The translations under genes and the position numbers were made by a program. A stretch of 64,000 bases of DNA from Natrinema salifodinae (GTDB lineage Archaea; Halobacteriota; Halobacteria; Halobacteriales; Natrialbaceae): assembly GCF_900110455.1 (NCBI RefSeq), contig NZ_FOIS01000005.1, positions 124,001 through 188,000 of the forward strand, given 5' to 3'. The first letter of the stretch is position 1. Each line of letters starts with the position of its first letter. The notes beneath the pieces are model-generated. The model made no database searches. It was not told where the DNA came from and was given only the letters and a program-made list of their open reading frames with translations. Positions 13,806 through 64,000 of the stretch are shown in pieces.

Positions 13806-13984
13806 TTATTGGTTTTGTCAAACGCTGATGAACGACTGCCGCCTGGCGATCGCGGCGGGGCGACGCCGTCGCGATCCAGGCGGGATCGTCTCGAGACGGG
13901 GCGGAACCGACGGGTACGCTCGTCCCGAGTGCGGAGAGCAACTGCCGGTGAACGAATCGCCTCCCCTCGGACGACGACCGTAGA

Positions 13985-48037: not shown

Positions 48038-49498
48038 ATGAGCGTCGTCGAACGACTCTTCCCGGGTGCGGATGAGGATACGGGTCGATTCGTCGTCGTC
48101 ACGGCAGCGCTCGCCGCGCTCAACGGATTGCTCTTCGGCTTCGATACCGGCGTCATCTCCGGTGCGATGCTCTACATCCGGGATACGTTCGACTTGACCG
48201 CGCTGTTCGGCTACCCCCTCGCCAGCTCGACCGTCGAAGGGTTGATCGTCAGCGGTGCGATGGCCGGTGCGATCGTCGGCGCGGCGCTGGGCGGTCGCCT
48301 GGCCGACCGACTCGGACGGCGTCGCCTCATTCTGGTCGGGGCCGTCATCTTCTTCGCGGGATCGCTCCTCATGACGATCGCGCCGACCGTCGAGATCCTG
48401 ATCGTCGGGCGCGTCCTCGACGGACTCGGAATCGGCTTCGCGTCGGTCGTCGGACCGCTGTACATCTCCGAGATCGCGCCGCCGAAGATCCGGGGGTCGC
48501 TCGTGACGTTCAATCAGATCATGATCACGGGCGGCATCTTCGTCTCGTATCTCACCAACTACGCCCTGGCGAGCCTGATCGTCGACGCCGAACTCTCGTG
48601 GCGTCTCATGCTCGGGGTCGGGATGGTTCCCGCGCTCGTCTTGCTCGTCGGGATCCACTTCCTGCCGGAGAGCCCCCGCTGGCTCGTCGAGCGGGATCGA
48701 GAGCAACGGGCGCGCTCCGTGCTCGGTCGGATCAGGAACGGTACTGACATCGACGCGGAGGTTCGAGAGATCAAGCGCGTGGCGGCGATCGAAGAGGACG
48801 GCTTCAGGGAGCTACTCAAGCCCTGGATCCGTCCCGTAATGATCGTCGGCCTCGGGCTCGCGATCTTCCAGCAAGCGACGGGTATCAACGCGGTCGTCTA
48901 CTACGCGCCGACGATTCTGGAAGCGTCCGGGTACAGCGACACCGCCGCGATCTTCGGCACGATCGGCGTCGGCGCCATCAACGTGGGCCTGTCGATCGTC
49001 GCGGCCCTCCTGCTCGACCGCGTCGGCCGCCGCCCGCTGTTGCTCGTCGGCCTGGTCGGAATGTTCGTGACGCTGGCCGTCCTCGGCGGCGCTTACTACC
49101 TCCCCGGGATGTCGGGACTGATCGGCCCGATCGCGGTCGCGAGCCTGATGCTGTTCGTCGCCGGCCACGCTCTCAGCCTCGGGCCGGTGTTCTGGCTGCT
49201 CATCTCCGAGATCTACCCGCTCAACGTCCGCGGTGCGGCGATGGGCGTCGTCACGCTCGTCCTTTGGCTCTCGAACTTCCTCGTCGCGCAGCTCTTTCCC
49301 TCGCTGTTCGAAATCGGTCCCACGGTCGCCTTCTGGTCGTTCGCCGGGGTGACGGCCGCGGCGTTCGCGTTCGCGTACGTCTTCGTACCGGAAACGAAGG
49401 GACGGAGCTTAGAGGAGATCGAGGCCGATCTGCGCGAGACGGCGGTGACCGGCGACGAGCTGTCGATCGCCGACCGCGCCGATCGAGCGGACGACTAA
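48038..49498 (+). CDS. MFS sugar porter
   Basis: The 486-residue protein has twelve membrane helices and the sugar-porter signatures: FGFDTGVISGAMLYI after helix 1, GGRLADRLGRRRLILVGA, PESPRWLVERDREQRARSVL at the end of the first half, and PETKGRSLEEIEADL after helix 12. QQATGINAVVYYAPTI in helix 7 is the hexose-contact region. A GTG frame opens at 47873, but homology begins at the ATG 48038. It would bring in a hexose or polyol for the enzymes coded downstream. Confidence 0.92.
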   Translation: MSVVERLFPGADEDTGRFVVVTAALAALNGLLFGFDTGVISGAMLYIRDTFDLTALFGYPLASSTVEGLIVSGAMAGAIVGAALGGRLADRLGRRRLILVGAVIFFAGSLLMTIAPTVEILIVGRVLDGLGIGFASVVGPLYISEIAPPKIRGSLVTFNQIMITGGIFVSYLTNYALASLIVDAELSWRLMLGVGMVPALVLLVGIHFLPESPRWLVERDREQRARSVLGRIRNGTDIDAEVREIKRVAAIEEDGFRELLKPWIRPVMIVGLGLAIFQQATGINAVVYYAPTILEASGYSDTAAIFGTIGVGAINVGLSIVAALLLDRVGRRPLLLVGLVGMFVTLAVLGGAYYLPGMSGLIGPIAVASLMLFVAGHALSLGPVFWLLISEIYPLNVRGAAMGVVTLVLWLSNFLVAQLFPSLFEIGPTVAFWSFAGVTAAAFAFAYVFVPETKGRSLEEIEADLRETAVTGDELSIADRADRADD

Positions 49499-50106
49499 CC
49501 GCTCCTCGCGAACACAGCCGGGCCACACCGGCTCCCGAACTCGAACGAGGAGAACGACGGCTTCGCGGTCTCTCGACTGCTGTCTTAGAACGATTGTCGC
49601 CCGTCCCCGTCGATCGAGTATTCCGGTCCCCATTGCAGTGAGTAGCCACACACTGGTCGTCCGAAGCGCCGCAACGGACGACGGTTTCGCGTCGGCAGCC
49701 AGTCTCGCGCCCGCGGTTCAAAATCGCCGCCGCTCGCCGCGAACGACGAGGCGTTTGCGACCGTCAAACGTCGTCGCTCCGACTCCGATTCGCGCTCGGA
49801 CGACCAGGCGGCGATCGAAAACGGCGCACCCAAATTACAACCATATGAATGTAAATCATCTTGTGAGGATTGAATACGATCACAATCCTGCAAAATATTG
49901 CGATGGAAACTCCTTTGAGGAGGACGTCAGCGGACGGCTGCGATTCGCCGGCAATCGGGCTGATCGAGCGATCGAATCAACGCGGACGGTCTCGCCGATT
50001 TCGCCGCCTCGTCCGTGGAACCGACTCTACTCGTCTCGAGCGGTCGCATTCCTATTGTCGGACCGGCGCCGCCGAACGCCGTTTGAAGCTCGCAAACGGA
50101 CTGAGA
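49499..50106. other. Convergent intergenic region with a stray dyad
   Basis: Between the sugar porter and the convergent IclR gene there is no recognised frame. A promoter-like dyad (49835-49854) followed by AT-rich sequence suggests that a gene once started here. Confidence 0.5.
49835..49854. promoter_or_regulatory. Dyad TTACAA-N8-ATGTAA
   Basis: Like the sites at 31683 and 44390 but with one mismatch in the right arm. The spacer is CCATATGA. No intact gene follows on either strand. Confidence 0.42.
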
Positions 50107-50874
50107 TCAGGAGAACTTCGCATTGATCTCGATGACGTTCGCGGAACGGGTGACCATGTCCGGAAGCTCCTCGCGGTACCGATCACCGGTCATCCGGCGC
50201 GAGGGGCCGGAGATGCTCACCGCGCCGAGGACCTCGTCCTCGCCGGCCATCACCGGCGCAGCGACACACCGCAGCCCCTCGATCTTCTCCTCGTCGTCGA
50301 ACGCGTAGCCGCGCTCGCGGATCGTCTCGAGGTCGTCGAAGAGGTCGTCTCGGGTGGTGATTGTCTGCGCCGTATAGGCCGGTAACCCGTGCCGATCGAC
50401 GATCTCCTCGATGCGATCGCGCGGGTAGTGGGCCAGGATCGCCTTTCCGAGCGAGATACAGTGGAGGTACTCCCGCTTCCCGACCGTCGAGGCCGTCTGG
50501 ACGGCTCGATCGCCGCCCTGTTTGTAGAGGTACACCGCTCGGCCGTGTTCCTCCGTTGCGAACTGCACGAGCTCGTCACACGTCGCGGCCAGGTCGTCTA
50601 GTTCGTCGGTCACGACGTCGTAGATTCCCAGCCGATCTTTTACCCTCTCGCCGAGTTCGAGGTACCGGAGACCGAGCCGGTACTCCTCGTCGTCCTTAAT
50701 GACGTGTTCGTCCTCGAGCAGCGTCGCCAGGTGGCAGTGGACCGTCCCCTTCGACCGGCCGAGTTCGTTCGCGATCTCGGTAACGCGAGCGCGCTCGTGT
50801 TCGTGCAGGTAATCGATGATCTCGAGCGTAATGCCCACCGCCTGAATCGTCCGCGGCTTCGTCGTTTCCGCCAT
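50107..50874 (-). CDS. IclR-family transcription regulator
   Basis: The 255-residue protein has the winged helix-turn-helix (QAVGITLEIIDYLHEHERA, then RSKGTVHCHLATLLEDEHV) and the effector domain with REYLHCISLGKAILAHYPRD and GLRCVAAPV. Of the in-frame ATGs, that at 50874 is chosen for normal length; the AT-rich stretch just upstream may hold the promoter. It precedes the sugar-dehydrogenase gene on the same strand and lies at the head of the sugar module, which it probably controls. Confidence 0.88.
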   Translation of the reverse strand: MAETTKPRTIQAVGITLEIIDYLHEHERARVTEIANELGRSKGTVHCHLATLLEDEHVIKDDEEYRLGLRYLELGERVKDRLGIYDVVTDELDDLAATCDELVQFATEEHGRAVYLYKQGGDRAVQTASTVGKREYLHCISLGKAILAHYPRDRIEEIVDRHGLPAYTAQTITTRDDLFDDLETIRERGYAFDDEEKIEGLRCVAAPVMAGEDEVLGAVSISGPSRRMTGDRYREELPDMVTRSANVIEINAKFS

Positions 50875-51042
50875 GAGTGAGATGAGCATATGCAAGCACT
50901 AAATTGTTCGTGTGTTTCAAACGGTTTTTGTCCGGATGCAAGAACTATTCGAGGGCCACGGGTACCGGACGAGTTCGATAACACTGCCGTCACTGACGCC
51001 CGTTCTCGGGCGCCTGCCCGGCGGTTGTCGTCGCGAGATCGC

Positions 51043-52113
51043 CTATAGATCGAACGAGACGACCGACTTCAACGTCTCGGGCGAGTTGGCGAACGCCGCT
51101 TCGATCTCGTCGAGCCCGTAGATCCCGGTTACGAGGTCGTCCAATACTGATTTCGGCACGTCGCCGAGCCATTCGGCTGCCGCCTCGAAGTGGGATCGGC
51201 GAGAGTTGACGACGCCGAGCAACGCCTTGTTGGTGACGACGAGTTCGGAGTGGAACGCGCCGCAATCGACGGCGAACGAGTCGGACTCCTCGGGGATGCC
51301 CTGCACGGTCGCGACGCCGTTCGGGGCCAGCGCACGAACTGCGTCGACGGCGTGTTTCGGGTACCCGGTCGTCTCGAAGACGTAATCGGCCGGCGCATGC
51401 GTATCGGCGAAGTCGGCGACCGGCGTCTCGCGCGAGTCGACGTACGTGGCGCCGACCGCTTCGATGAAATCGATCGTCGGATCGGGGCGATCACGCCTCC
51501 CGAGGCAGTACGTCCGGGCGAACTCGTCGCCCGTCGCTAAGCGAGCGAGCGCGAGCAGTCCGAGGTTCCCGTTTCCCAGTACGAACGCGCGCTCGGGTCG
51601 CCAGGCGAACGCCGAGCGCGCCGCGAACGCCTGCTCGAGCGATTTTTCGAGCAGGCTCGCCGGTTCGACGAAGAACCCGTATTCGGCGCGAGAGTCGGGA
51701 ACGGAGGCGAGGTGCTCCGGGTTAGCCGTGAAGTACTCCGCCATGTAGCCGTGGGCCCCCGTGATCCCGCACTCGTGGAACGTCCCCGGTGGCGCCACGT
51801 CGAGTTCGCCGTTCTCGGCGAACCGCGACCCCGCATCGACCGGCCGGCGAACCAACGGAGCGACGACCTCACCTTCCGCCAGGCCGGTTCCGTTCGCGTC
51901 CGCGACCACGCCGACCGCCTCGTGTCCCAGAACGAGATGGTCCGCACCGGCCGGAACGTCGCCGCCGATCTCGCCGGCCACGATCCGTCTGTCCGAACCG
52001 TCGATGCCTACCGCTAGCGTCCGAATCAGCGCTTCACCGTCGTCGGGAGACGGTCTCTCCGTCTCGATGACGCGCAGTTCCGGTCCGTCCGGAACGAGTG
52101 CTACGGCTTGCAT
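51043..52113 (-). CDS. Glucose/sugar dehydrogenase, haloarchaeal medium-chain type
   Basis: The 356-residue protein follows the Haloferax mediterranei glucose dehydrogenase pattern. Zinc ligands are Asp38 (VGIDGSDRRIV) and His64-Glu65 (LVLGHEAVGVV). Other shared stretches are GAHGYMAEYFTANPEHLASV, ARSAFAWRPERAFVLGNGNL, CLGRRDRPDPTIDFIEAVGA and ETTGYPKHAVDAVRALAPNG. Such enzymes oxidise aldoses to lactones at the entry to the semi-phosphorylative pathway. A TATA element near 52140-52147 is 30 bp upstream. Glucose, galactose or a pentose could be the substrate. Confidence 0.88.
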   Translation of the reverse strand: MQAVALVPDGPELRVIETERPSPDDGEALIRTLAVGIDGSDRRIVAGEIGGDVPAGADHLVLGHEAVGVVADANGTGLAEGEVVAPLVRRPVDAGSRFAENGELDVAPPGTFHECGITGAHGYMAEYFTANPEHLASVPDSRAEYGFFVEPASLLEKSLEQAFAARSAFAWRPERAFVLGNGNLGLLALARLATGDEFARTYCLGRRDRPDPTIDFIEAVGATYVDSRETPVADFADTHAPADYVFETTGYPKHAVDAVRALAPNGVATVQGIPEESDSFAVDCGAFHSELVVTNKALLGVVNSRRSHFEAAAEWLGDVPKSVLDDLVTGIYGLDEIEAAFANSPETLKSVVSFDL

Positions 52114-52364
52114 GTACACTCGACGGTGTCTGACGACTACTATAAATCTGCTCCCGCTCCCGACCGACGACGCTGGTCGAACAGTTCGGTCGCCGCCCAT
52201 CCAAGGGCCGGAGTCGGTCACGGGCTCTTCGGTACCATCGCGTCGGGAGTAGTGGGCGACGGTGACGTTTGCACGTTTCAAACAGGGCCTTCGAACCCGC
52301 ACCGGCGACCGCCAACTGCAAGGAGCATAACGTATTTGTGCACGTACCACAACCACTAATCCGT

Positions 52365-53861
52365 ATGTCCGAGCAGCAAGAGCAAGCCGTTTCACCAGCC
52401 GTTCGTAGCCGCGTCGACAACTACGTCGGCGGTCAGTGGACGACACCGGCCGCCGAGACGACCCAGTCCGTCGTCGACCCCGCGACCGGAGACGACCTGG
52501 CGACGGTCGAATTTTCGTCAGCCGAGACCGTCGACCAGGCCGTCCGGACCGCGAACGACGCGTTCGAAGACTGGCGCCAGACGCCCGTCGTCGAGCGGGT
52601 CCAGTACCTGTTCGACCTGAAGACCGAGCTCGAGGACCGGATCGACGAGATCGCGACCGCGCTCTCCCGCGAGCACGGGAAGACCGTCGCGGAGGCCCGC
52701 GGAGAGATCCGTCGCGGCATCGAGAACGTCGAGGTCGCCTGCGGGATGCCCAACATGATGCGCGAGGGCAGCGGCAACGTCGAGGACGTCGCCTCGGGAA
52801 TGGACGAGTACGCCGTCCGGCAGCCGCTGGGCGTCTTCACCGCCATCACGCCGTTCAACTTCCCCGCGATGATCCCGCTGTGGTTCCTCCCGTACGCGGT
52901 CGCGACCGGAAACACGTTCATCCTCAAGCCCAGCGAGAAGGTGCCGCTGAGCTCGCAACTGATCTTCGAGGCCGTCGACGCAGTCGACTTCCCGGACGGC
53001 GTCGTCAACCTGGTCAACGGCGGCGCTGAAACCGTCAACGCGCTACTCGAACACGACGATATCGAGGGCGTCTCGTTCGTCGGAAGCTCTCCCGTCGCCA
53101 AGCACGTCTACGAGACCGCGGCCCAACACGGCAAGCGCGTCCAGGCCCAGGGCGGCGCGAAGAACTACGCCGTCGTCACCGACCAGGCCTCCCTCGAGGA
53201 CGCGATTCCGAACATCATCGGCTCCGTCTACGGCAACGCCGGCCAGCGGTGTCTCGCCAACGACGTCGTCGTCGGCGTCGGCGACGTCTACGACGACCTC
53301 CGCGAGCAGTTGATCGACGCCGCCGAGGACCTGACCGTCGGCGTGGGGGTCGAGGAAGAGACCGACGTCGGGCCGCTGATCACCGACGAGTCGCGCGAGC
53401 GCGTCCTCGACCTGATCGAGAACGCCCTCGACGAGGGTGCCGAACTCGTCCTCGACGGCCGGGACTTCGAACATCCCGAGGGCCTGGCCGGCAGTTTCCT
53501 CGGGCCGACGCTGCTCGAGGGCGTGACCGCCGATATGGAAATCGCCCAGGAGGAAATCTTCGGGCCGGTGCTCTGTCTCGCCGAGGTCGATGCTCTCGAC
53601 GAAGCGATCGAGATGGTCAACGCGACCAAGTACGGCAACGCCTCCTCGATCTACACCGAATCGGGCAGCGAGGCCCGCCGGTACAAGTACGCGGTCGACG
53701 CCGGGAACATCGGGATCAACGTCGGCGTCTGCGCGCCGATGGGCTTTTTCCACTTCGGCGGCCGGAAGGCCTCGTTCTTCGGCGACCTCCACGCCCAGGG
53801 CGAGGACGCGGTCAACTTCTACACCGAGAAAACGATCCAGATCGAACGCTGGTACAGCTAA
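52365..53861 (+). CDS. mmsA: Methylmalonate-semialdehyde dehydrogenase (CoA-acylating)
   Basis: The 498-residue aldehyde dehydrogenase has PFNFPAMIPLWFLPYAVATG, a coenzyme-binding SFVGSSPVAKHVYETAAQHG, the catalytic Cys296 in GNAGQRCLANDVVV, and ends in FFGDLHAQGEDAVNFYTEKT. At the place of the general-base Glu of ordinary aldehyde dehydrogenases it reads QAQGGAKNYAVV, as in the MmsA/IolA group, which makes acyl-CoA from malonate or methylmalonate semialdehyde. A TATA box (CGTATTTGTG, 52331-52340) lies 29 bp before the ATG. In an inositol pathway it would be the last step; valine breakdown is the alternative. Confidence 0.9.
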   Translation: MSEQQEQAVSPAVRSRVDNYVGGQWTTPAAETTQSVVDPATGDDLATVEFSSAETVDQAVRTANDAFEDWRQTPVVERVQYLFDLKTELEDRIDEIATALSREHGKTVAEARGEIRRGIENVEVACGMPNMMREGSGNVEDVASGMDEYAVRQPLGVFTAITPFNFPAMIPLWFLPYAVATGNTFILKPSEKVPLSSQLIFEAVDAVDFPDGVVNLVNGGAETVNALLEHDDIEGVSFVGSSPVAKHVYETAAQHGKRVQAQGGAKNYAVVTDQASLEDAIPNIIGSVYGNAGQRCLANDVVVGVGDVYDDLREQLIDAAEDLTVGVGVEEETDVGPLITDESRERVLDLIENALDEGAELVLDGRDFEHPEGLAGSFLGPTLLEGVTADMEIAQEEIFGPVLCLAEVDALDEAIEMVNATKYGNASSIYTESGSEARRYKYAVDAGNIGINVGVCAPMGFFHFGGRKASFFGDLHAQGEDAVNFYTEKTIQIERWYS

Positions 53862-53990
53862 CGCGGCGGACGGCTCCCGGATCGGACGACCGCCGGAGAC
53901 AAACGGGGAATCGCGTCGGTCGATCGCGCTGCTCTCGATTTTTAGAAGTCGAGTCGGTACCGCCGGTACCGGTAGCGTCGTCGGAGCCGC

Positions 53991-54797
53991 TTACTCGTCA
54001 TTCGTCGCTGGCATCGATCCGGCGTGTCGCGCAACCGCGTCTTCGTACCGTTCCTTCGCGGCGCGACTCGAGTCCGCCAGGTAGGCGGTGTCCTTCCCGA
54101 CGATGAGGAAGTCGAACCCGGCTTCGACGCGGTCCTCGATCAGGTCCTGGGACGCCGTGAACGTTCCGACGGGAGTTCCGTGTCGGTCCCCGGCTCGAAC
54201 GACGCGATCGATCGCGTCCTGCAGTTCCGGCGCGTCCCACTGGCCGAAGACGCCGAGCACGCCCGAGAGGTCCGCCGGCCCGACGAACAGCGCGTCGATG
54301 CCGTCGACCGCGGCGATCTCGTCGACGCTCTCGAGGCCGGCGCGGCTCTCGATCTGGGCGATCGTCACGATCGACCCGTTCGCGTCGGCGACGTACTCGA
54401 CGAAGTCCATTCCGTACTCCGCGGCGCGGCCGCTCGCGATGCCGCGGATTCCCTCGGGCGGATAGCGAACGGCATCGACGAGTTGCTCGGCCTCGTCGGC
54501 CGACTCGATCATCGGGACCATCACGCCGGCGACGCCGATGTCGAGGACGCGTTTGATCCGACTCGGATCGTTTCGCGGCACTCTGATTATCGCCTCGGTC
54601 GGTGCCTCCTTCGCGTCGATCGCACGGGAGATGTGCTCGACGGTTTCGAGGCTCATCGTCGTGTGTTCGGTGTCGACGAGCACGAAATCGAACTCGAGGG
54701 CGGAACTCACCTCGGCGACGGCCGGATGGCCGATCGAGAGCCAGTTCCCGACCGGATACTCCCCCGCCTCGAGCGTCCGTTTGAAGTGACGGCTCAT
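53991..54797 (-). CDS. HpcH/HpaI-family 2-oxo-acid aldolase
   Basis: The 268-residue protein has the class II pyruvate aldolase pattern: GNWLSIGHPAVAEVSSALEF, FVLVDTEHTTMSLETVEH, GVAGVMVPMIESADEAEQLV, PPEGIRGIASGRAAEYG, the metal ligands in IAQIESRAGLESVDEI and LFVGPADLSG. It splits 2-keto-3-deoxy sugar acids into pyruvate and an aldehyde. It faces the dehydratase gene across a divergent region, so the pair can form a dehydratase-aldolase route from a sugar acid. The exact acid is not known. Confidence 0.88.
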   Translation of the reverse strand: MSRHFKRTLEAGEYPVGNWLSIGHPAVAEVSSALEFDFVLVDTEHTTMSLETVEHISRAIDAKEAPTEAIIRVPRNDPSRIKRVLDIGVAGVMVPMIESADEAEQLVDAVRYPPEGIRGIASGRAAEYGMDFVEYVADANGSIVTIAQIESRAGLESVDEIAAVDGIDALFVGPADLSGVLGVFGQWDAPELQDAIDRVVRAGDRHGTPVGTFTASQDLIEDRVEAGFDFLIVGKDTAYLADSSRAAKERYEDAVARHAGSMPATNDE

Positions 54798-55172
54798 CGG
54801 TCTTCGGTGCGGTGGTCGCGGTAGCGGTTCGGTTCGAGACGTCCCGCGTCGGGACGTCCGCTCCGGCTGCGTGTCGATCGAGGACCGATCGCGGAAGCGA
54901 TCGGCCTATCGGGTCCAGTTGCTACGGTCGCTGACATGGACGTATCCCGTCATCCCGCTCCGAGAGCTATAAAAATTCGGGTTAGTCGAACTCCGTCCGT
55001 CGCGAGAACGTTCCCGGGCCGAATCGTCACCACCGGAAACTATAACACCTATCTTCACAATCGATTTGATGATGCAAGCCGTGATCACCTGTCGCGGAGC
55101 GTGGGAACAACGCTCGTACCGCGAACGCGACGGCGCAGTACCGACTCGCAGCCACACAGCCTGACTCAAACC
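54798..55172. other. Divergent region between aldolase and dehydratase genes
   Basis: It must hold both promoters. An AACTATAACA element near 55038 would start a message about 100 bp before the dehydratase ATG. No extra gene is seen. Confidence 0.45.
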
Positions 55173-56408
55173 ATGTACGACGACTTCGCATCCACGCTCG
55201 CGGCGACGATGTGGGCGGACTTCGACGAACAACCGGACCGGGACGGCCCGACGGCCGAGATAACCGACGTCAACTCGATCGTCATCGACGGCAACTTCCC
55301 GTGGACGATCGTCACCCTCGAGACCGATCAGGGAGTGACCGGGATCGGCGAGGCCTACCCCTCGCCTGGCGTCCACGAAATTATCACCGACTACCTCCGA
55401 CCCGTCCTCGTCGGCGAGAACCCGCTGGACGTCGAACGACTGTACTACCTCATGCGCGAGAGCCTCTCGGGACGGGGCTCGCAGTGGGGGGTCGGCACCA
55501 TCGCGATCAGCGGCATCGAGATCGCGCTCTGGGACGCCGCCGGGAAGATCCTCGACCAGCCCGTCTACCAGCTGCTGGGCGGAAAGCTGCGCGATCAGGT
55601 TCGCGTCTACGCCGACTGCCACGCCGGGGAAGCGATGGTCTCCTCGGCCGCGGAGGGCCAGGAAACGGCGACCTACGAACCCGAGGCGTACGCGAAGGCC
55701 GCGCGCATGGCCGTCGATGACGGGTTCGACGTGATCAAGTTCGACCTCGACGTCCCCTCCGGGCGGGAGATCGACACCCTCTCGCGGCACTTCGACCCGC
55801 CGGAGATCGAACACAAGCGCTCGGTCGTCGAGGCGGTCACCGACGAGATCGGCGACGAGGCCGAGGTCGCGGTCGACCTTCACTGGAACTTCAGCCCCGA
55901 GACGGCCGAACGGCTCTGTCAGGCGATCGAACCGTACGATCTCGCCTGGATCGAGGATCCCCTCCCGCCCGAGAACACCGACGCGATGCGCGAACTCAAG
56001 CGTCGCGTCGACGTGACGCTGCTGACCGGCGAGAACCGCTACGGCCGCCACGGCTTCCGTGACCTCGTCGAGACCCAGGCGGTCGACTTCCTCGCGCCCG
56101 ACGTCCCCAAGACCGGCGGGATCGCCGAGACGAAGAAGATCGCCGACCTGGCCGAGGGCTACTACCAGGCGCTCGTTCCACACAACATCGGGAGCCCGGT
56201 CGCGACGGTCGCGACCGCCCACGTCGGCGCGACCGTTCCGAACTTCGTCGCCCTCGAGTACCACGCTCGCGAAGTCCCGTGGTGGGACGATCTGGTGGCT
56301 CGGGACGAGCCGCTCATCCGGAACGGACGGCTCGAAGTGCCCGACGCGCCAGGCCTCGGCATCGAACTCGACTGGGACGCCGTCGAGGAACACCGGAAAC
56401 GGTCTTGA
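55173..56408 (+). CDS. Enolase-superfamily sugar-acid dehydratase (xylonate dehydratase-like)
   Basis: The 411-residue protein resembles the haloarchaeal D-xylonate dehydratase: ITDVNSIVIDGNFPWTIV, ISGIEIALWDAAGKILDQPV, RVYADCHAGE, DVIKFDLDVPSGREIDT, AVDLHWNFSPETA, WIEDPLPPEN, LTGENRYGRHGFRD, APDVPKTGGIAETKKI and VPHNIGSPVATVATAHVG. The Asp, Glu, Glu metal ligands and the catalytic His lie in these segments. The open frame reaches 54936, but homologous proteins begin about 30-40 residues before ITDV, matching ATG 55173. D-xylonate, L-arabinonate or another aldonate may be the substrate. Confidence 0.85.
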   Translation: MYDDFASTLAATMWADFDEQPDRDGPTAEITDVNSIVIDGNFPWTIVTLETDQGVTGIGEAYPSPGVHEIITDYLRPVLVGENPLDVERLYYLMRESLSGRGSQWGVGTIAISGIEIALWDAAGKILDQPVYQLLGGKLRDQVRVYADCHAGEAMVSSAAEGQETATYEPEAYAKAARMAVDDGFDVIKFDLDVPSGREIDTLSRHFDPPEIEHKRSVVEAVTDEIGDEAEVAVDLHWNFSPETAERLCQAIEPYDLAWIEDPLPPENTDAMRELKRRVDVTLLTGENRYGRHGFRDLVETQAVDFLAPDVPKTGGIAETKKIADLAEGYYQALVPHNIGSPVATVATAHVGATVPNFVALEYHAREVPWWDDLVARDEPLIRNGRLEVPDAPGLGIELDWDAVEEHRKRS

Positions 56409-56540
56409 CGCGGCCCTCCTGCGGTCTCCGTCCCCGCTGACTCTCGTCTCCGCCTCGGTCGATTCACCCTCGAACGGTGATCTCGAGTCGGAACCGAGCA
56501 CAAAACCTAATGTGCTTTCTTTCGTACTGTTGAGCGGACG

Positions 56541-57560
56541 ATGGTTGCAATCGATTACATGGCCCATCAGGAGCAGTACGACCCCTCGCAGCTGTTGGAG
56601 TACGGCGACGTCGCCACCGACGCCGGCTACGAGACCGTCTGGACGTCGGATCACTTCCACCCGTGGTTCCACACGGGCGCCGACTCGGGGTTCGCCTGGT
56701 CGTGGCTCGGTGCGGCTACCGAACGGCTCGACGGGCCGATCGGAACGTGCGTCACGCCCGCGACCGGCCACTACCACCCCGGCGAGATCGCTCAGGCGTT
56801 TGCCACGCTCCAGCACCTGCACGACGACCGCGTGATCCTCGGGCTCTCGACGGGCGAGGCGATGAACGAGACGCCGCTTGGGTTCGACTGGCCGGAGTAT
56901 CCGGAGCGCCGCGACCGGCTCGAGGAAACGCTCCGGATCGTCCGCGCCCTGTGGGAGGACGAGGAGTGGCTCGACGCGGACGTCGTCGACCGCATCGACG
57001 AGGACGGCTTCGTCACCTACGACGGCGAACGGTTCGAACTCGACGGGGCGAAACTGTACACCGAGCCCGAGAAGTCCCCCGAGATCCACATCGCGGCGAA
57101 CGGGCCGAGCACCGCCAGGCTCGCGGCCCGGTACGCCGACGGGTTCGTCACCGTCAAGAAGGGCGAGGAGTTCACCGATCGGCTCTACCCGGCGATCCAC
57201 CGCTACGCCGAGGAGGAGGGCAACGACCCCGACGCCATCGAAACGACGCTGCTAGTGATCGCGTCCTACCACCCCGACTACGAGGTGGCCGTCGAGGCGA
57301 CCAGGCCCTGGTGGGCGACGACCCAGAACGTCTTCGACCGCGCGCTGGCGGATCCGCGGGAGATCGAACAGGAGGGAGAGAAGGCGACGCGCGAACAGAT
57401 CGAGGAGAAGTTCCTGATCGCGGACGATCCGTCGACGATCGCCGCGCAACTCGAGAAGTACGCCGAAATGGGGTTCGATCGGATCGCCGTCGGGAACACC
57501 AGTCCGGAGCCCGAGCGCCTGTTCGAGGTCATGGGCGACGAGGTAATTCCGTCGCTGTGA
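56541..57560 (+). CDS. F420-dependent sugar dehydrogenase-like protein (luciferase-like fold)
   Basis: The 339-residue protein is a luciferase-like TIM barrel of the F420-dependent glucose-6-phosphate dehydrogenase type: DYMAHQEQYDPSQLLEYGDV, VWTSDHFHPWFHTG, GPIGTCVTPATGHYHPGEIA, VILGLSTGEAMNE and IHIAANGPSTARLAARYADG. Haloarchaea make coenzyme F420, so the cofactor is available. Its location among sugar dehydratases and dehydrogenases suggests oxidation of a sugar or its lactone. It starts with ATG 56541, 132 bp after the dehydratase gene on the same strand. Confidence 0.85.
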   Translation: MVAIDYMAHQEQYDPSQLLEYGDVATDAGYETVWTSDHFHPWFHTGADSGFAWSWLGAATERLDGPIGTCVTPATGHYHPGEIAQAFATLQHLHDDRVILGLSTGEAMNETPLGFDWPEYPERRDRLEETLRIVRALWEDEEWLDADVVDRIDEDGFVTYDGERFELDGAKLYTEPEKSPEIHIAANGPSTARLAARYADGFVTVKKGEEFTDRLYPAIHRYAEEEGNDPDAIETTLLVIASYHPDYEVAVEATRPWWATTQNVFDRALADPREIEQEGEKATREQIEEKFLIADDPSTIAAQLEKYAEMGFDRIAVGNTSPEPERLFEVMGDEVIPSL

Positions 57561-57750
57561 GCGGCGTCGAGTGGGGATGGAGGACGGCCACGGAAACCTG
57601 ATTGCGGCGACGCCGCCCCACGGGCGCGGTCGGTCGATGGCGATTTGGCACCGTCCGGCCGGAACTGGACGGAACCGGCCGGCACCGCGTTCGGTTCCGA
57701 TCGTCGTCTCTCGGCTCTCGTGTCCCCCTGCTGAACCGACGCGCGAGGGC

Positions 57751-57760
57751 GAATATTTAT
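57751..57760 (+). promoter_or_regulatory. TATA box of the TPP enzyme gene
   Basis: GAATATTTAT is centred 30 bp before the ATG at 57786, which favours that start over the upstream ATG at 57759, which overlaps the TATA element. Confidence 0.55.
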
Positions 57761-57785
57761 GTCACACCGTGGCAATCACTCGAAC

Positions 57786-59528
57786 ATGCCCACGCTTACC
57801 GGTGGCGAGATCATCGCCGAGTATCTGGAGAAAGAGGACGTCGAGTACCTGGTCGGCATCCCCGGACACGGGAGCACCAACCTCCTCGACGCGTTCAACG
57901 AGTCCGACGTCGGGGTCATCCAGCCCCGCCACGAACAGGGTGCGGTCCACCTGGCGGACGGCTACGCGCGCGCCAGCGGCGAGCCGCTCGCGGTCTTCAC
58001 CTCGATCGGACCCGGCGCGACGAACACGGTCACCGGGGCGGCGACGGCCTACGTCGACTCGATCCCGATGGTCATCTTCACGGGCGCGCCCCAGACCCAC
58101 GAGTACGGGCAAGGGATTCTGCAGGAACTCGACCGACAGAAGCCAGGCGACTTCCCGAGCGTGATGGAGCCCGTGACGAAGCGGAGCTTCGTCGTGCGCG
58201 ACGTCGAACGGCTCCCGCGAGTCCTGCGGCGCGCGTTCCAGACCGCGGTCACGGGTCGACCGGGGCCGGTCCACGTCGACGTCCCGATGGACGTCCAGGG
58301 GGCCGCCGCGGACGTCGAGATTCCCGACCCCGAGGAGACGCGCACGCACAGTCGGCCAGGCGGCGATCCCGAATCGGTCGCCGAGGCCGCGGACCTGCTC
58401 GCCGAGGCCGACCGCCCCGTGATCGTCCCCGGCGGCGGCTGTCTACTCGGCGAGGCCTGGGACGAAGTCCAGGCGCTGGCCGACCACCTGAAGGCGCCGG
58501 TCATCCCGACCTTCCAGGCCAAGGGGATCATCCCCGAGGACCACGAGCTCTTCGTCGGGTACGCGGGCTGGATCGGCTCGACGGCCGGCAACGAACTCGC
58601 GAGCAACGCGGACGTCGTGCTCGGGATCGGCTGTCGGTTCTCCGACCTCCACACCTCCTCGTTCGAGCAGGGCGTGAGCTTCGAGATCCCGCCGAGCAAG
58701 CTGATCCACGTCGACATCGACAACACGGAGATCGGCAAGAACTACCCCGTCGAGGTCGGCATCCTCGGCGACGCCAAGGTCGTCACCGATCAGCTCTACG
58801 AGGCCGTTTCCGACCGCGTCAGCGAAGTCCCGACCGAGGACAACGAGTACTACGACGAGATCCAGCGCCTGTGGGCCGAGTGGCAGGAGAAAGTCGAAGC
58901 GCGCCACACGAACGACGTCCCGATGAGCATCTCGCGCGCGCTGGCGAGCCTCCGCGAGGCGCTGCCCCGCGAGGGAATGGTCGTCTCGAGCGCCGGCCAG
59001 CCCCAGGAGACGACCAATCCCGAGTTCCCCGTCTACGAACCCCGAACGAACATCTCCTGTGGCGGCTTCTCGACGATGGGCTTCGGCGTGTCCGCGGCGA
59101 TCGGCGCGAAACTCGCCGAACCCGATCGGCCGGTCGTCGACGTCGAGGGCGACGGGAGCTTCCTGATGTGCAACCAGGAAGTCGCCTGCGCCGTCGAGCA
59201 CGATATCGACGTCACCTGGCTCGTGGTCAACAACAACGGCTGGAAGTCGATCCGCAACCTGCAGGTCGACAAGTACGGCTGGGACCGCGTCCTCAACACG
59301 GAGTTCGACCAGGAGAGCGACGTCGACTTCGTGAAGATGGCCGAGGCGTTCAGCATCGACTTCGCCGAACGCGTCGTCAAGCCCGAGAACCTCACCGCGA
59401 CGCTCGAGGAGGCGATCGAGTACGACGGGCCCGCGTTCGTCGAGGCCGTCGTCGAACCGGACAACCCCGACTCGGGTGCGATCATCACCGGCGAGTGGGA
59501 TCTGGCCGACCTCGAGACCGACGATTGA
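57786..59528 (+). CDS. Thiamine-diphosphate enzyme, acetolactate synthase/IolD-like
   Basis: The 580-residue protein has a Pyr domain with the activating Glu in QPRHEQGAVHLADGYAR, the text TSIGPGATNTVTGAATAYVD, a middle domain with RPVIVPGGGCLLGEAWDEV, and a PP domain with EGDGSFLMCNQEVACAV and the Asn ligand in LVVNNNGW. The family includes acetolactate synthase, sulfoacetaldehyde acetyltransferase and IolD, which opens the inositol-derived ring. The gene lies next to IolM-, IolE- and IolG-like genes, so ring or C-C cleavage of a polyol product is a reasonable guess. It is not closely related to the TPP protein at 18078. Confidence 0.82.
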   Translation: MPTLTGGEIIAEYLEKEDVEYLVGIPGHGSTNLLDAFNESDVGVIQPRHEQGAVHLADGYARASGEPLAVFTSIGPGATNTVTGAATAYVDSIPMVIFTGAPQTHEYGQGILQELDRQKPGDFPSVMEPVTKRSFVVRDVERLPRVLRRAFQTAVTGRPGPVHVDVPMDVQGAAADVEIPDPEETRTHSRPGGDPESVAEAADLLAEADRPVIVPGGGCLLGEAWDEVQALADHLKAPVIPTFQAKGIIPEDHELFVGYAGWIGSTAGNELASNADVVLGIGCRFSDLHTSSFEQGVSFEIPPSKLIHVDIDNTEIGKNYPVEVGILGDAKVVTDQLYEAVSDRVSEVPTEDNEYYDEIQRLWAEWQEKVEARHTNDVPMSISRALASLREALPREGMVVSSAGQPQETTNPEFPVYEPRTNISCGGFSTMGFGVSAAIGAKLAEPDRPVVDVEGDGSFLMCNQEVACAVEHDIDVTWLVVNNNGWKSIRNLQVDKYGWDRVLNTEFDQESDVDFVKMAEAFSIDFAERVVKPENLTATLEEAIEYDGPAFVEAVVEPDNPDSGAIITGEWDLADLETDD

Positions 59529-59706
59529 TCGACGGACGGTAGTCGCCGATCGCCGAGCCAGAACTCGTCCGAACCCGTCCGAACCCTTCCCTTCCTGATC
59601 GTCGAACGTTCCCGCACTAACATCGTAATCTCGAGCGGCCTGACCGTCGCTGCGTCGACCGCCGCGCCAGGCGGCGCTTGTCGCGACCTGGACGCGAGAT
59701 TCCTCC

Positions 59707-59716
59707 GATATTATTA
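59707..59716 (+). promoter_or_regulatory. TATA box of the Zn-dependent dehydrogenase gene
   Basis: GATATTATTA lies about 31 bp before the ATG at 59743 and supports that start over the ATG at 59716. Confidence 0.5.
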
Positions 59717-59742
59717 TGTCGGATGGTGGTCCATCTCGTGGT

Positions 59743-60897
59743 ATGCAATCCCTCGTAGTCGATGCGGAGTGGGATCCCCGGTCCGAGTACGACGTTTCGG
59801 ACGCCGAACGGGCGTCGAAGAAAGCCATGAACTCCTCGCAGGTGTGGCGCGATCCCGACCTCCGGGTCACCGAGCGCGAGCGGCCGACGCCGGCCGACGA
59901 CGAAGTGCTCGTTCGCGTCCGCTACGCCGGCGTTTGCGGGAGCGACGTCTCGATGCTCGAGACGGACGAAGACGGCTACGTCCACTACTCGGCGTACCTG
60001 GGGCTGCCGAACGTGATCGGTCACGAGTTCGCGGGCGAGATCGTCGAGACGGGCGACGACGCGCAGCTGTTCGAGGCGGGGGATCTCGTCACCGCCGAGG
60101 TCACCGACTACTGCGGGCGCTGTGACATGTGCCGCCAGGGGTTCATGGGCCACTGCGAGAACTTCGAGCAGCTCGGGTTCACGATCCCCGGCGCGTTCGC
60201 GGAGTACGTCGCCGTTCCCGAGAAGCTGTGCTGGGACGTCTCGTCGCTGCGGGAAGCCTACGGGACGGACGACGAGGTGCTCCGGGCCGCCGCGACCATC
60301 GAGCCGAGCACCATCACCTACCACGGCTTGTTCGCGCGGGCCGACGGGATCCTGCCCGGCGACTACCACGTCTATCACGGCGCGGGCCCGATCGGACTGA
60401 CCGGCATGAACGTCTCGCGAGCCGCCGGCGCCGGGAAGGTGATCGCGTTCGAACCGTCCGACGCTCGCCGCGAGGTCGCCCGCGACCTCGGCTTCGACCA
60501 CGTCTACGACCCGATCGAACGCGATCCGGCCGAGACCATCGCGTCGATCACGGACGGCCAGGGCGCCGACGTCCACGTCGAGACCGCGGGCGCAGTCGGA
60601 CAGACGTATCCGGCCATCGAGGACTCGCTGGCGGAGGGGGCGAACGTGGTCCACATCAGCAACGCCGGCTCCGATCCCGGCCTCGCGCTGCGGAAGTACC
60701 AGGGCAGCGGCGCGCAACTCTACGGCTCGGAGGGCCACACCGGCCACCAGGTCTACCCGCGCGTGATTCGCCTGATGGCCGCCGGCAAACTGGACAACCG
60801 CCCGATCGTCACGTCGACGTTCGACCTCGAGAACGCGGCCGACGCGGTCCGCCAGGCGGCCGAGCGCGTCGACGGGAAGGTCCTCGTCGAGATATAG
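59743..60897 (+). CDS. Zinc-dependent polyol dehydrogenase, scyllo-inosose 3-dehydrogenase-like
   Basis: The 384-residue medium-chain dehydrogenase has catalytic zinc ligands Cys65 (GVCGSDVSML) and His94-Glu95 (VIGHEFAGEI), and structural-zinc cysteines at 124, 127, 130 and 138. The unusual N-terminus VVDAEWDPRSEYDVSD and the stretches TDEDGYVHYSAYLGLPN and GSEGHTGHQVYPRVIRLMA resemble what I recall of the Thermotoga maritima enzyme TM0412 (IolM), which oxidises scyllo-inosose. I could not align it. The gene has its own leaderless TATA promoter and precedes an IolE-like gene. Another cyclic polyol or sugar could be the substrate. Confidence 0.8.
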   Translation: MQSLVVDAEWDPRSEYDVSDAERASKKAMNSSQVWRDPDLRVTERERPTPADDEVLVRVRYAGVCGSDVSMLETDEDGYVHYSAYLGLPNVIGHEFAGEIVETGDDAQLFEAGDLVTAEVTDYCGRCDMCRQGFMGHCENFEQLGFTIPGAFAEYVAVPEKLCWDVSSLREAYGTDDEVLRAAATIEPSTITYHGLFARADGILPGDYHVYHGAGPIGLTGMNVSRAAGAGKVIAFEPSDARREVARDLGFDHVYDPIERDPAETIASITDGQGADVHVETAGAVGQTYPAIEDSLAEGANVVHISNAGSDPGLALRKYQGSGAQLYGSEGHTGHQVYPRVIRLMAAGKLDNRPIVTSTFDLENAADAVRQAAERVDGKVLVEI

Positions 60898-61074
60898 GCC
60901 GCAGCCCCGCGGCACGTCCTCGGCGGTCCGAGAGCCGGGCGCCGGAACGGCGGCAGCGGTCCGGCGACCGCGGCTCGCTGTCCGCGAAGCCGGTCGGGGC
61001 GTCGCGGCCGACCTGCAACTGCCGTTCGACAACCATCCCCATTATTTATTATTCTCGCTCGCACAACGTCCCGT

Positions 61075-61878
61075 ATGGGCGTAGGATACACGACCATTAT
61101 GTACGATCCAGCGGAGGTACTGTCCGAGGGACTCGGCGATTTCTCGGCGTGTCGGTACGGCGGCGTCGAGATCGGCCTCGGAAAGGTCGAGTACATCGGC
61201 GTCGACTCGCTGCAGGAATCCCTCGAGGAGCACGGGCTCGATATCTACTGTGTCATGGCCGGCTGGCTCAACGACGAGGACGACGTGGACGCGGCGGTCG
61301 ACGGCGCCGGCATCGCCGCCGAACTCGGCGCTCGCTTCCTGGGCATCCTGCCGCCGCCGCGGGGACAGGTCAGCGACGAGACGTTCGACGAGTGGCTCGA
61401 CCGGATCTGCGAGGCCGCCGCCGAGGCCGGCGTTACTCCCGTCCTGCATCACCACGGGGCGGCACACGTCGAGGGTCCCGACGAGATCGAGGAGTGGCTC
61501 GAGCGCGCTCCGGACAACCTCGAGTTGTTGTTCGACACCGCGCACTACTACCCGTACGGCGACGTCGTCGACGGGATTCACCGGTTCGCCGACGACATCG
61601 CGTACGTCCACCTCAAGGACATCGATCCGACGGTGGACTTCCAGGACCACGTCGACACCCTGACGGCCGGCAAGGTCCAGTACGACAGTCTCTTCGTGTT
61701 CCTTACGTCGTTCGTCGACCTCGGGGAGGGCGTCATCGACTTCGAGGCGGTCGACCAGGCGCTCGACGAAATCGGCTACGACGGGGCCATTACGATCGAG
61801 ATCGAGAACGAACGCGACGACCGGCTCGTCCACGCGAAGCGAAACGTCGATCACTGGATCGACGCGACGAACGCGTGA
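61075..61878 (+). CDS. IolE/xylose isomerase-like TIM-barrel protein
   Basis: The 267-residue protein is a sugar isomerase/epimerase-type barrel. It shows FLGILPPPRGQ, the metal-site texts VLHHHGAAHVEG, LELLFDTAHYYPYGD and YVHLKDIDPTVDF, and ends with DFEAVDQALDEIGYDGAITI and the final Glu ligand in IEIEN. Inosose dehydratase IolE and several 3-keto-sugar epimerases share this layout. A TATA box ATTATTTATT at 61041-61050 is 29 bp before the ATG. Among inositol-type genes it could dehydrate or epimerise the keto-inositol product. Confidence 0.8.
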   Translation: MGVGYTTIMYDPAEVLSEGLGDFSACRYGGVEIGLGKVEYIGVDSLQESLEEHGLDIYCVMAGWLNDEDDVDAAVDGAGIAAELGARFLGILPPPRGQVSDETFDEWLDRICEAAAEAGVTPVLHHHGAAHVEGPDEIEEWLERAPDNLELLFDTAHYYPYGDVVDGIHRFADDIAYVHLKDIDPTVDFQDHVDTLTAGKVQYDSLFVFLTSFVDLGEGVIDFEAVDQALDEIGYDGAITIEIENERDDRLVHAKRNVDHWIDATNA

Positions 61879-62014
61879 CGGGGTGACGGCAACTCGAAAC
61901 GCGGGCCGCCGATTCGGGTAGTCACGTCCGCGTATCCCGTCCGCACGTACCCTTTCCCTTCCGTCTTCCCGTCCGCAGCGATTCCGATTTCGACGCTCGA
62001 GCGGCGCTACTCGC

Positions 62015-63124
62015 TCAGCGGGTCGATTCGACGGCGACGTGCGTCCGCTGCTCGTCGCTTCGAGTGACGGCGTCGACGACGCGCTGGACGGCCAGGCCGT
62101 CCGCGAACGTCGGAACGTCGGCGCGCTCGCCGTCGATTGTGCGGAGGAACTCGTAGTTTTCGTGGACGACGGTGTGCTCCCAGCCGATGGCGTGGCCGGC
62201 CGGCCACCATCGGTCGCCGTACGGATCGTCCTCGTCGGTGACGAGAACGCGTTCGTACCCGCGCCGGTCGGCGTCGTAGACCTCGAGTTCGTTGAGTCGC
62301 TCGAGGTCGAACCGGATCGCCCCCTCGGAGCCGATGATCTCCACGGCGTTGGTCGCCTTGTGGCCCGACGCTACGCTCGACCCCTCGAAGACGCCGATCG
62401 CGCCCGAGTCGAACGACGCGGTCGCGAGATAGGCGTCGTCGGTCGTCACCGGTCGCCGCCCGTCGCCGTTCGGATCGGGTCGCTCCTCGACGAACGTGGC
62501 GAGCCGACCGCTGATGTCGACGATGTCGTCGACCAGCCAGCGCGCCAGGTCGATCGTGTGCGAGCCGACGTCGCCGACCTGCCCGTACCCCGCGCGGTCG
62601 GCGTCGTTGCGCCAGGTCCAGGGATGCTCGGGATCGGCCTGCCAGTCCACGAGGTACCGCCCGCGGAAGTGGCGGATCTCGCCGAGTTCGCCCGACTCGA
62701 TCAGTTCCTTCGCCAGGCGGAGCGCCGGAACGTACCGGTAGTTGAACGCGCAGGCGGCGACGGCGTCGCTGTCGCGGGCGGCTTCGACCATCTTCTCCGC
62801 TTCCGCGAGGGAGCCCGCGAGCGGTTTCTCGCAGAGGACGTGGACGTCGTTCTCGAGGGCGGCGATTGTCGGCTCGGCGTGGAGGTCGTTCGGCCCGAGA
62901 TTGTAGAGGACGTCCACTTTGTCGACAAGCGCCTCCCAATCGTTTGTCGTGTGCGTGAACCCGAACCGGTCGGCCGCCGCGGCGACGCGCTCCTCGTCGC
63001 GCCCGCAGAGGACGTGTCGCTCGGTGTCGGGCGCCTCCGAGAAGAACATCGGCAGCCGGGCCAGCGCGTTCGCGTGCGCCTGGCCCATGAACCCGTAGCC
63101 GATGAAGCCGACGCGCAGCGTCAT
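62015..63124 (-). CDS. Gfo/Idh/MocA-family oxidoreductase (inositol dehydrogenase-like)
   Basis: The 369-residue protein has the NAD-binding VGFIGYGFMGQAHANALAR at the N-terminus, the Glu-Lys-Pro motif in VHVLCEKPLAGSLAEAEKMV with the catalytic Lys, and the C-terminal domain with GYGQVGDVGSHTIDLARWLV holding the conserved Asp and His. The family oxidises myo-inositol, glucose and other sugars at one carbon. It converges on the IolE-like gene and is divergent from a second family member. Substrate is not fixed by sequence. Confidence 0.87.
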   Translation of the reverse strand: MTLRVGFIGYGFMGQAHANALARLPMFFSEAPDTERHVLCGRDEERVAAAADRFGFTHTTNDWEALVDKVDVLYNLGPNDLHAEPTIAALENDVHVLCEKPLAGSLAEAEKMVEAARDSDAVAACAFNYRYVPALRLAKELIESGELGEIRHFRGRYLVDWQADPEHPWTWRNDADRAGYGQVGDVGSHTIDLARWLVDDIVDISGRLATFVEERPDPNGDGRRPVTTDDAYLATASFDSGAIGVFEGSSVASGHKATNAVEIIGSEGAIRFDLERLNELEVYDADRRGYERVLVTDEDDPYGDRWWPAGHAIGWEHTVVHENYEFLRTIDGERADVPTFADGLAVQRVVDAVTRSDEQRTHVAVESTR

Positions 63125-63457
63125 CGGCGGTCACCTCCGGTGGCCGATGCGGTAACGGAAGCGGAGACCGGGGTCGTTGTAACGGCGCTCGGTTTCGGAT
63201 CGGGACGGTCGCGGTCGGTCCGCCGGTCGTCTGACTGCGCGCTGGTATCGGTGCCGGTGCCGGTCCCGAGGCTGGGCCTGGCGGGTGGAACGAGACGCAT
63301 ACCTGACGGGTCGGCGGCCTCGTGCAAATAGCTACCGGGAGTCGATCGGGGTACGCCGAACGGCGTCGCGGCGGTCGGAAGCGGGGCGCCGCGCTCGGAT
63401 GCGAGATGTGAAACCGTATCAATTTATTTGTGGGATGCCGCACAACGTACTGCCGAG
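63125..63457. other. Divergent intergenic region between two Gfo/Idh/MocA genes
   Basis: It contains the TATA element AATTTATTTG (63421-63430), about 32 bp before the ATG at 63458. No clear promoter for the minus-strand gene and no further gene is seen. Confidence 0.5.
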
Positions 63458-64000
63458 ATGAAGCTCGGAGTCATCGGTGTTGGCGCCATCGCACAGATCA
63501 TGCACGTGCCGTACCTCGCGGAACTACCCGAGGCAGACATTCACGCGATCGCGGACCCGGGCGAGAACGTAGTCGAAACGTTCGGGGACCGGTACGACGT
63601 TCCTCACCGGTACACGGAGAGCGCAGCCCTGATCGAGGAGCGGGCCGACGAACTCGACGGCGTCGTCGTCACGACGCCGATGCACACCCACGCGGAGGTC
63701 GCGGTCGCCGCCCTCGACGCGGACCTGCACACGTTCGTCGAGAAGCCGGTCGCGGTGACGCCCGAGGACGCCCAGGCCGTCGTCGACGCGGCCGAGGAGA
63801 CCGACGCGGTCTGTATGGTCGGGTACATGAAGCGCTTCGATCCCGGCTTCCGTCGGTTCCAGTCCGAAGTGGCCGATCTCTCCGAGATCGACCTCGTCAC
63901 GAGCGTCGTCATCCCGCCGAACGTCGGCGCCGTGATCGACGAGAACTACGATATCGTCTACGCGGACCTCGACGAGGGATTCATCGCGGAGAGCAACGCG
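63458..64000 (+). CDS. Gfo/Idh/MocA-family oxidoreductase, N-terminal half (cut by right edge)
   Basis: The 181 visible residues start with the dinucleotide-binding MKLGVIGVGAIAQIMHVPYL, continue with VVVTTPMHTHAEVAVAALDA and the catalytic Lys in HTFVEKPVAVTPEDAQAVVD, and then MVGYMKRFDPGFRRFQSEV. The gene runs off the right edge. It is a different subgroup from its divergent neighbour, so the two may act on different positions or substrates of the same pathway. Confidence 0.87.
   Translation, partial: MKLGVIGVGAIAQIMHVPYLAELPEADIHAIADPGENVVETFGDRYDVPHRYTESAALIEERADELDGVVVTTPMHTHAEVAVAALDADLHTFVEKPVAVTPEDAQAVVDAAEETDAVCMVGYMKRFDPGFRRFQSEVADLSEIDLVTSVVIPPNVGAVIDENYDIVYADLDEGFIAESNA

Follow-up and report, generated by a model that had tools for sequence, protein, structure and literature searches.

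Gene content of the locus

The DNA analyzed here, referred to as the window, is a stretch of 64,000 nucleotides (bases 124001-188000) of the 323-kb contig NZ_FOIS01000005.1 (C5) in the 4.27-Mb genome of the haloarchaeon Natrinema salifodinae, and its right-hand end holds a cluster of candidate genes for inositol catabolism. From left to right, these encode a CoA-acylating (methyl)malonate-semialdehyde dehydrogenase (MMSDH) of the IolA type (52365-53861, plus strand); an HpcH/HpaI class II aldolase (53991-54797, minus strand; PF03328); an acid-sugar dehydratase of the enolase superfamily (55173-56408, plus strand; PF13378/PF02746); a luciferase-like oxidoreductase of the F420 type, related to Adf and FGD1 (56541-57560, plus strand; nearest solved structures 1rhc and 3b4y); an enzyme with three thiamine pyrophosphate (TPP) domains (57786-59528, plus strand), for which we propose the role of IolD, a 1,2-dione ring hydrolase; a homologue of IolM, a zinc-dependent medium-chain dehydrogenase/reductase (MDR; 59716-60897, plus strand); an IolE-like TIM barrel with an AP_endonuc_2 domain (61075-61878, plus strand); and two Gfo/Idh/MocA (Gfo) dehydrogenases, of which one (62015-63124, minus strand) is considered accessory, and the other, a candidate of the IolG type (63428-64000, plus strand), runs on beyond the window to C5:188543. 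The candidate regulator of the module is an IclR-family protein (50107-50895, minus strand; PF01614 and PF09339), orthologues of which stand at many related loci.

A first-pass annotation had placed an inositol-type catabolic module at 51043-64000. The reading frames that it named are present, but its gene list was incomplete, lacking the aldolase, the dehydratase, the luciferase-like enzyme and a glucose-dehydrogenase-like MDR, and the extent that it gave was too short. It had suggested reading the DNA to the right of the window for further iol-type genes, and there the locus goes on for about 13 kb, with an aldo/keto reductase, further Gfo proteins (one, related to the IolG-type candidate, at C5:190530-191612), a second HpaI-type aldolase, an ATP-binding cassette (ABC) sugar transporter, a second IclR protein and a paralogous second IolE-like protein (C5:197518-198333, minus strand).

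Co-occurrence and clustering across haloarchaea

We searched independently for the TPP enzyme, the dehydratase, the luciferase-like enzyme and IolM in 392 genomes of the same order (IolM was sought in named genomes too), and counted the IolE-like, Gfo and aldolase families in a subset of 60 genomes, of which 28 have the TPP enzyme and 32 lack it. The flanks of thirty distinct IolM loci were compared as well. The TPP enzyme was found in 28 genomes, the dehydratase in 48 and the luciferase-like enzyme in 28; the TPP and luciferase-like sets are identical, comprising the same 28 genomes from 13 genera, a co-occurrence far above chance (Fisher p 2e-43, phylogeny not corrected for). All 28 also have the dehydratase, the IolE-like family (0/32 of the other genomes), the Gfo family (2/32 of the others) and an aldolase scoring above 309 bits (0/32 of the others), the last lying less than 20 kb from the TPP gene. 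These six core genes share one contig, within a span of 7.6-21.2 kb, in every one of the 28 genomes. Their order and strands vary between genera, and the same families recur around IolM in several haloarchaeal families, with 81-93% identity of the TPP enzyme at most of the IolM loci compared. MMSDH is present in 26 of the 28 genomes, near the TPP gene in 23, and IolM, found in 28/392 genomes, overlaps the TPP set in 25/28 (Fisher p 5e-33, again with phylogeny not corrected for) and usually adjoins the TPP gene (median distance 1.9 kb).

Twelve haloarchaeal plasmid records carry the module, which occurs in many strains of Haloterrigena, Halostagnicola, Haladaptatus, Natrinema, Haloarcula and others; named strains holding the locus include Haloterrigena turkmenica DSM 5511. 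Since the module is plasmid-borne in many strains and patchy within genera, its distribution suggests spread by horizontal transfer. At three loci only (Haloterrigena turkmenica pHTUR01, L187; L055; L056), a metallo-beta-lactamase-fold, UlaG-like hydrolase gene stands between the luciferase-like and TPP genes. Three further genomes (G013, G086 and G381) have IolM but lack the core TPP, luciferase-like and IolE-like proteins; beside the IolM gene of G086 only half an aldolase gene aligns, so that the cluster there may be decaying.

The smallest version of the cluster was found in three species of one genus (G059, G103 and G172), which have no IolM and keep all other core genes in an uninterrupted block of IolE-like, dehydratase, Gfo, aldolase, MMSDH, TPP, luciferase-like and IclR genes. 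Because this compact block lacks IolM, we define the core as seven enzymes and regard IolM as accessory; the compact cluster provides one enzyme for each of the seven steps proposed below. A GDPD-type phosphodiesterase and an ABC transporter adjoin it, which would suit uptake of inositol phosphodiesters. The extra Gfo copies, the second IolE-like copy and IolM, all absent from the compact cluster, point to several substrates in the larger clusters, as would be expected if a related cyclitol (e.g., pinitol, quercitol or an inosamine) were degraded by the same enzyme logic and myo-inositol were a poor substrate. Considering that no demethylase or deaminase is conserved at the locus, we regard this alternative as improbable.

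Enzymes of the proposed front end

The first-pass annotation had likened the zinc dehydrogenase to IolM of Thermotoga, and this was borne out: the protein is a full member of the curated family NF041097 (scyllo-inosose 3-dehydrogenase; 554.2 bits, cut-off 450), and its best solved relative is 3ip1 (E 4e-85). We propose that it serves as an accessory inositol or inosose dehydrogenase. Two alternatives would give it a central place. According to the first, two oxidations without any dehydration, by Gfo and then IolM, yield a diketo-inositol, the TPP enzyme opens its ring to a hexuronate, and this is oxidized to a hexarate, from which dehydration and then cleavage by an aldolase of the GarL type yield pyruvate and tartronate semialdehyde. 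The full family membership of IolM, its usual place beside the TPP gene and the fact that GarL is the best family for the aldolase are in keeping with this. Yet the three compact genomes hold all other core genes without IolM, and neither the IolE-like protein, present in 28/28 genomes, nor MMSDH would have a role. Moreover, the product of Thermotoga IolM is a 1,3-dione, while TPP-dependent ring hydrolases cleave 1,2-diones. We therefore hold the two-oxidation route to be quite unlikely.

The second alternative is an unmodified route of the Thermotoga type, with the IolE-like barrel taking over the task of IolN and forming 5-keto-gluconate. It would account for IolM, and the fold family of the barrel has many sugar isomerases. 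However, IolN (NF041098) gave no match above its cut-off in 17 genomes (the control exceeded it in one genome); in the present genome its weak matches lie on another contig, and the barrels of the locus are not among the hits at E 0.001. As this route also leaves the TPP enzyme, present in all 28 genomes, without a role, we consider it very improbable.

For the IolE-like barrels, IolE (TIGR04379) is the best curated family, in agreement with the earlier assignment, but the two copies score just 75 (61075-61878) and 78 bits against a cut-off of 290. Other listed curated families reach 23 bits or less. At the active site, the IolE-like proteins retain the H, D, H and E residues of IolE (aligned columns HHH, FDT-H, H-KD and E-E), and most of the non-haloarchaeal proteins nearest to them in the plasmid collection are annotated iolE. 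In a Foldseek search with a structural model (predicted local distance difference test, pLDDT, 92.8), IolE structures lead the list. Because VIA-align ranks the isomerase Art22 (Z 29.5) above IolE (27.9), with many epimerases close behind, the fold backs IolE without singling it out.

Two IolG-like proteins had also been named, and two Gfo/Idh/MocA proteins do lie there, but with the IolG equivalog TIGR04380 the Gfo proteins score 95-107 bits (105-107 for the two so named, with 107 for the protein starting at 63428), below the cut-off of 355. The Gfo candidates retain the EKP lysine and HD histidine of IolG. The best curated model for the accessory protein at 62015-63124 is levoglucosan dehydrogenase (NF052479; 312.1 bits, cut-off 650), and this match speaks for a non-inositol reading of the locus as a 3-keto-sugar or anhydrosugar route of the levoglucosan type. 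Here Gfo proteins would oxidize C3, the TIM barrels would catalyze elimination or hydration, and the dione cleaved by the TPP enzyme would derive from a 3-keto-sugar. Gfo and PF01261 proteins are indeed paired in levoglucosan clusters (PMC10066097); a 2-hydroxy-3-keto-glucal hydratase and a 3-keto-glucoside epimerase are among the structural matches of the barrel; and bacterial relatives of the TPP enzyme neighbour GMC, ThuA or Gfo genes. On the other hand, the levoglucosan-like Gfo protein is missing from the compact clusters, the barrels score markedly higher with IolE than with the other listed families, and MMSDH and IolM would be left without a role. On balance, we judge a 3-keto-sugar route unlikely.

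The TPP enzyme has intact TPP domains, with glutamate at the usual position, and its IPGHGS and IRNLQ motifs recall FGHGN and IN-LQ of IolD; the haloarchaeal acetolactate-synthase-like paralogues compared are without these motifs. The label 'IolD-like' given to it in the first-pass annotation thus agrees with the motifs, but not with the score of the IolD equivalog (TIGR04377; 281.4 bits, cut-off 715) or with its 26-29% identity to IolD. An AlphaFold model of the enzyme was set aside for its mean pLDDT of 51, and a Streptomyces IolM cluster was dropped as support, its TPP protein being of another type (18% identity).

Among bacteria, relatives of the TPP enzyme at 45-46% identity occur in Priestia, Arthrobacter, Rhizobium and Paracoccus (plasmid loci L182-L185), in a catabolic cluster with hisD-like and GMC oxidoreductase genes, some of them beside an aspartate-ammonia-lyase-like gene. 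Another route for an alicyclic ring may be encoded on a plasmid of Azoarcus sp. KH32C (L195), where a TPP enzyme of 35% identity accompanies shikimate dehydrogenase, 3-dehydroquinate dehydratase, a PF01261-type protein, a CoA transferase and a citryl-CoA lyase.

Enzymes of the proposed lower branch

The MMSDH at 52365-53861 is a CoA-acylating enzyme of the MMSDH/IolA type (TIGR01722; 532.5 bits, cut-off 448.5), as the first-pass annotation had it, and keeps both substrate-arginine motifs, RRGIENVE and GQRC, as in IolA. The other lower-branch enzymes stand outside the curated families nearest to them. The luciferase-like enzyme scores 206.4 bits with TIGR03557 (cut-off 210.4) and 201 bits with the FGD equivalog (cut-off 420). 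FGD oxidizes C1 of glucose 6-phosphate. An alignment with 3b4y and 1rhc shows two FGD motifs, SDHF-PW (as SDHFHPW) and GEA-NE (as GEAMNE), conserved in the luciferase-like enzyme. Of the lysines and the arginine at the phosphate site of FGD, one lysine is conserved, another lies opposite a gap and the arginine is replaced by lysine, a pattern that would fit an acidic substrate lacking phosphate. For the dehydratase, the galactonate dehydratase model gives 213 bits (cut-off 311), and the nearest solved structure, 2qq6, is of unknown function. The aldolase lies below the cut-offs of both curated equivalogs, GarL (208/407 bits, the best) and HpaI (206/369 bits).

The enzymes of the Bacillus lower branch had been listed as missing. 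This holds for IolB, which was found in 0/17 genomes by a search whose control rang in three bacteria; within the locus, neither an IolC-type kinase nor an IolJ-type aldolase was seen, and no genome-wide search was made for these two. The distinguishing feature of the module is its lower branch, in which the luciferase-like oxidoreductase, the enolase-superfamily dehydratase and the HpaI/GarL aldolase take the place of IolB, IolC and IolJ.

A shared operator

We looked for operators by a palindrome search of intergenic regions, deriving the expected number from a second-order Markov model. Across 121 kb of this genome, the motif GTTTG-N7-CAAAC was found at 7 sites, versus 0.05 expected, and all 7 are intergenic and in the cluster, spanning 49752-74768 (in window coordinates extended to the right). 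In its longer form, CGTTTG-N7-CAAACG, it stands as a perfect inverted repeat at 49752-49770 and at 50080-50098, and with 1/12 mismatches at 52266-52284, between the divergent genes 51043-52113 and 52365-53861; a degenerate copy (2/12 mismatches) lies upstream of the IclR gene at 50905-50923. In the extended coordinates, divergent genes flank further operators at 65775-66267, two more (74493 and 74768) precede the second IolE-like gene, and weaker sites are found at 65652 and 65945. The shared motif joins genes inside and outside the window as one regulon. In Haloterrigena turkmenica it stands between IclR and MMSDH and also upstream of the aldo/keto reductase, and in two compact clusters the IolE-like gene is preceded, at a distance of about 0.6 kb, by an exact copy. 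We infer that the IclR protein binds these sites. The operators at 49752 and 50080 fall in 49499-50106, between convergent genes, where a promoter is unexpected; a gene may have been lost here, or an unannotated transcript may be present.

Proposed pathway and its relation to known systems

Starting from what was observed directly (gene content, co-inheritance, clustering, the placement of IolM and MMSDH in their curated families, and the common operator), we infer the substrate and every reaction of the following route. With moderate confidence, we read the locus as a regulon for the breakdown of inositol (either myo-inositol or a close cyclitol) with a non-phosphorylative lower branch. In the first step, a Gfo dehydrogenase would oxidize inositol to inosose, which the IolE-like barrel would dehydrate to trihydroxycyclohexane-1,2-dione; the TPP enzyme would then hydrolyze the dione ring to 5-deoxyglucuronate. 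In the fourth step, the luciferase-like enzyme would oxidize C1 of 5-deoxyglucuronate, by analogy with FGD, giving 5-deoxyglucarate or its lactone, after which the dehydratase would form 4-hydroxy-2-oxoadipate, and the HpaI/GarL-type aldolase would cleave this to pyruvate and malonate semialdehyde. Finally, the IolA/MMSDH-type dehydrogenase would convert malonate semialdehyde to acetyl-CoA and CO2. Steps 4-6, assigned because they fit the established chemistry of the families, would form a bridge in place of the missing IolB, IolC and IolJ. The IclR protein would regulate the genes through the CGTTTG-N7-CAAACG sites. Acceptance of a wider range of inositol isomers would fall to IolM, the additional Gfo proteins and the second copy of the IolE-like protein.

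Several observations weigh against this reading. The IolE, IolD and IolG assignments are far under the curated cut-offs, and the xylose-isomerase-like fold of the barrel also hosts 3-keto-sugar enzymes and epimerases. The bacterial proteins closest to the TPP enzyme (45-46% identity, well above that to IolD) sit with hisD-like and GMC genes rather than with iol genes, and a tree neither joined the enzyme to IolD nor settled its kinship. Furthermore, IolM is found in 25/28 genomes though the core pathway needs no IolM step, and MMSDH is missing near the cluster in 5/28.

The Bacillus-type steps from inositol to 3-oxopropionate have been described (PMC8355322), and the core has candidates for the first three and the last of them. 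As in the IolG-E-D-B-C-J-A systems of Bacillus, Salmonella and rhizobia, Gfo, IolE-like, IolD-motif TPP and MMSDH/IolA proteins stand together with a regulator and a transporter, and our proposal shares with them the first three intermediates as well as the last step. Unlike these systems, the haloarchaeal one has no IolB (17 genomes) and no IolC or IolJ type seen at the locus, with the luciferase-like enzyme, the dehydratase and the HpaI/GarL aldolase instead, and its IolE, IolD and IolG counterparts score below cut-off. With the IolG-M-N-O system of Thermotoga maritima it shares an IolM that the curated model places fully in the family; it differs in the lack of an IolN above cut-off, in having no evidence for IolO, in a TPP enzyme in the place of IolN, and in the dispensability of IolM in three species. 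An inositol-type catabolic module in a new arrangement, as first suggested, is the best reading, but a mixture of the Thermotoga and Bacillus routes is not its best description: the mixture is only partly right, because IolM looks accessory, being missing from three species that keep the rest of the core, and IolN is absent from the locus.

In its lower part, the proposed route resembles non-phosphorylative acid-sugar routes (haloarchaeal pentose oxidation, the Weimberg and Dahms routes, and the GarD/GarL hexarate route), which likewise proceed through an acid and a 2-keto-3-deoxy acid to an aldolase or an oxidation, without a kinase; the proposed cyclitol ring-opening front end, F420-type oxidation and malonate semialdehyde product would set it apart. 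Levoglucosan (LgdA-B-C) and 3-keto-sugar clusters also combine Gfo and PF01261 proteins with sugar transporters, but the described steps of the levoglucosan set are without a TPP enzyme, MMSDH, IolM or a luciferase-like enzyme (PMC10066097).

In a survey that included 1,511 archaeal genomes, inositol degradation through known gene clusters was concluded to be confined to bacteria (PMC9430895). Three other haloarchaeal isolates, with genomes whose cluster status is unexamined, are reported as not using inositol (PMC7490331). We searched the open-access literature, with subscription journals outside this scope, for archaeal inositol catabolism, 5-deoxyglucarate and non-phosphorylative inositol routes, and did not find the pathway described there; several of these genomes already have a gene named iolM in their NCBI annotation, but the remainder was not found described as a pathway. 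We give an even chance to the locus encoding a kinase-free, seven-enzyme archaeal route with an F420-dependent oxidation, which would be the first inositol catabolism in archaea and a third microbial solution beside those of Bacillus and Thermotoga, with a TPP hydrolase from outside the IolD family. If so, haloarchaea would owe a kinase-free way of using inositol to a patchy, often plasmid-borne locus, testable functions could be assigned to six or seven protein families with poor annotation, and the proposed F420-dependent sugar oxidation would join carbon catabolism.

Neighboring and accessory genes

The sugar porter and the IclR regulator that had been listed with the module were both found, but to the left of 51043, where the module had been taken to start. 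The porter, of the major facilitator superfamily (48041-49498 with an approximate start, plus strand; TIGR00879, 425 bits, cut-off 237.8), is not conserved at most related loci. The glucose-dehydrogenase-like MDR (51043-52113, minus strand; PF16912, 252.6 bits) is accessory, occurring in 4 related loci only. At locus L009, two plus-strand open reading frames (12434-13357 and 13767-14981) were rejected as genes, being without a family match and overlapping real genes on the opposite strand. Further left in the window, a separate, carboxylate-type neighborhood (24496-46060) comprises a TctA transporter, an isocitrate/isopropylmalate-type dehydrogenase, a D-2-hydroxyacid dehydrogenase, an FAD-linked oxidase with an Fe-S domain, an AMP-binding enzyme and another IclR protein.

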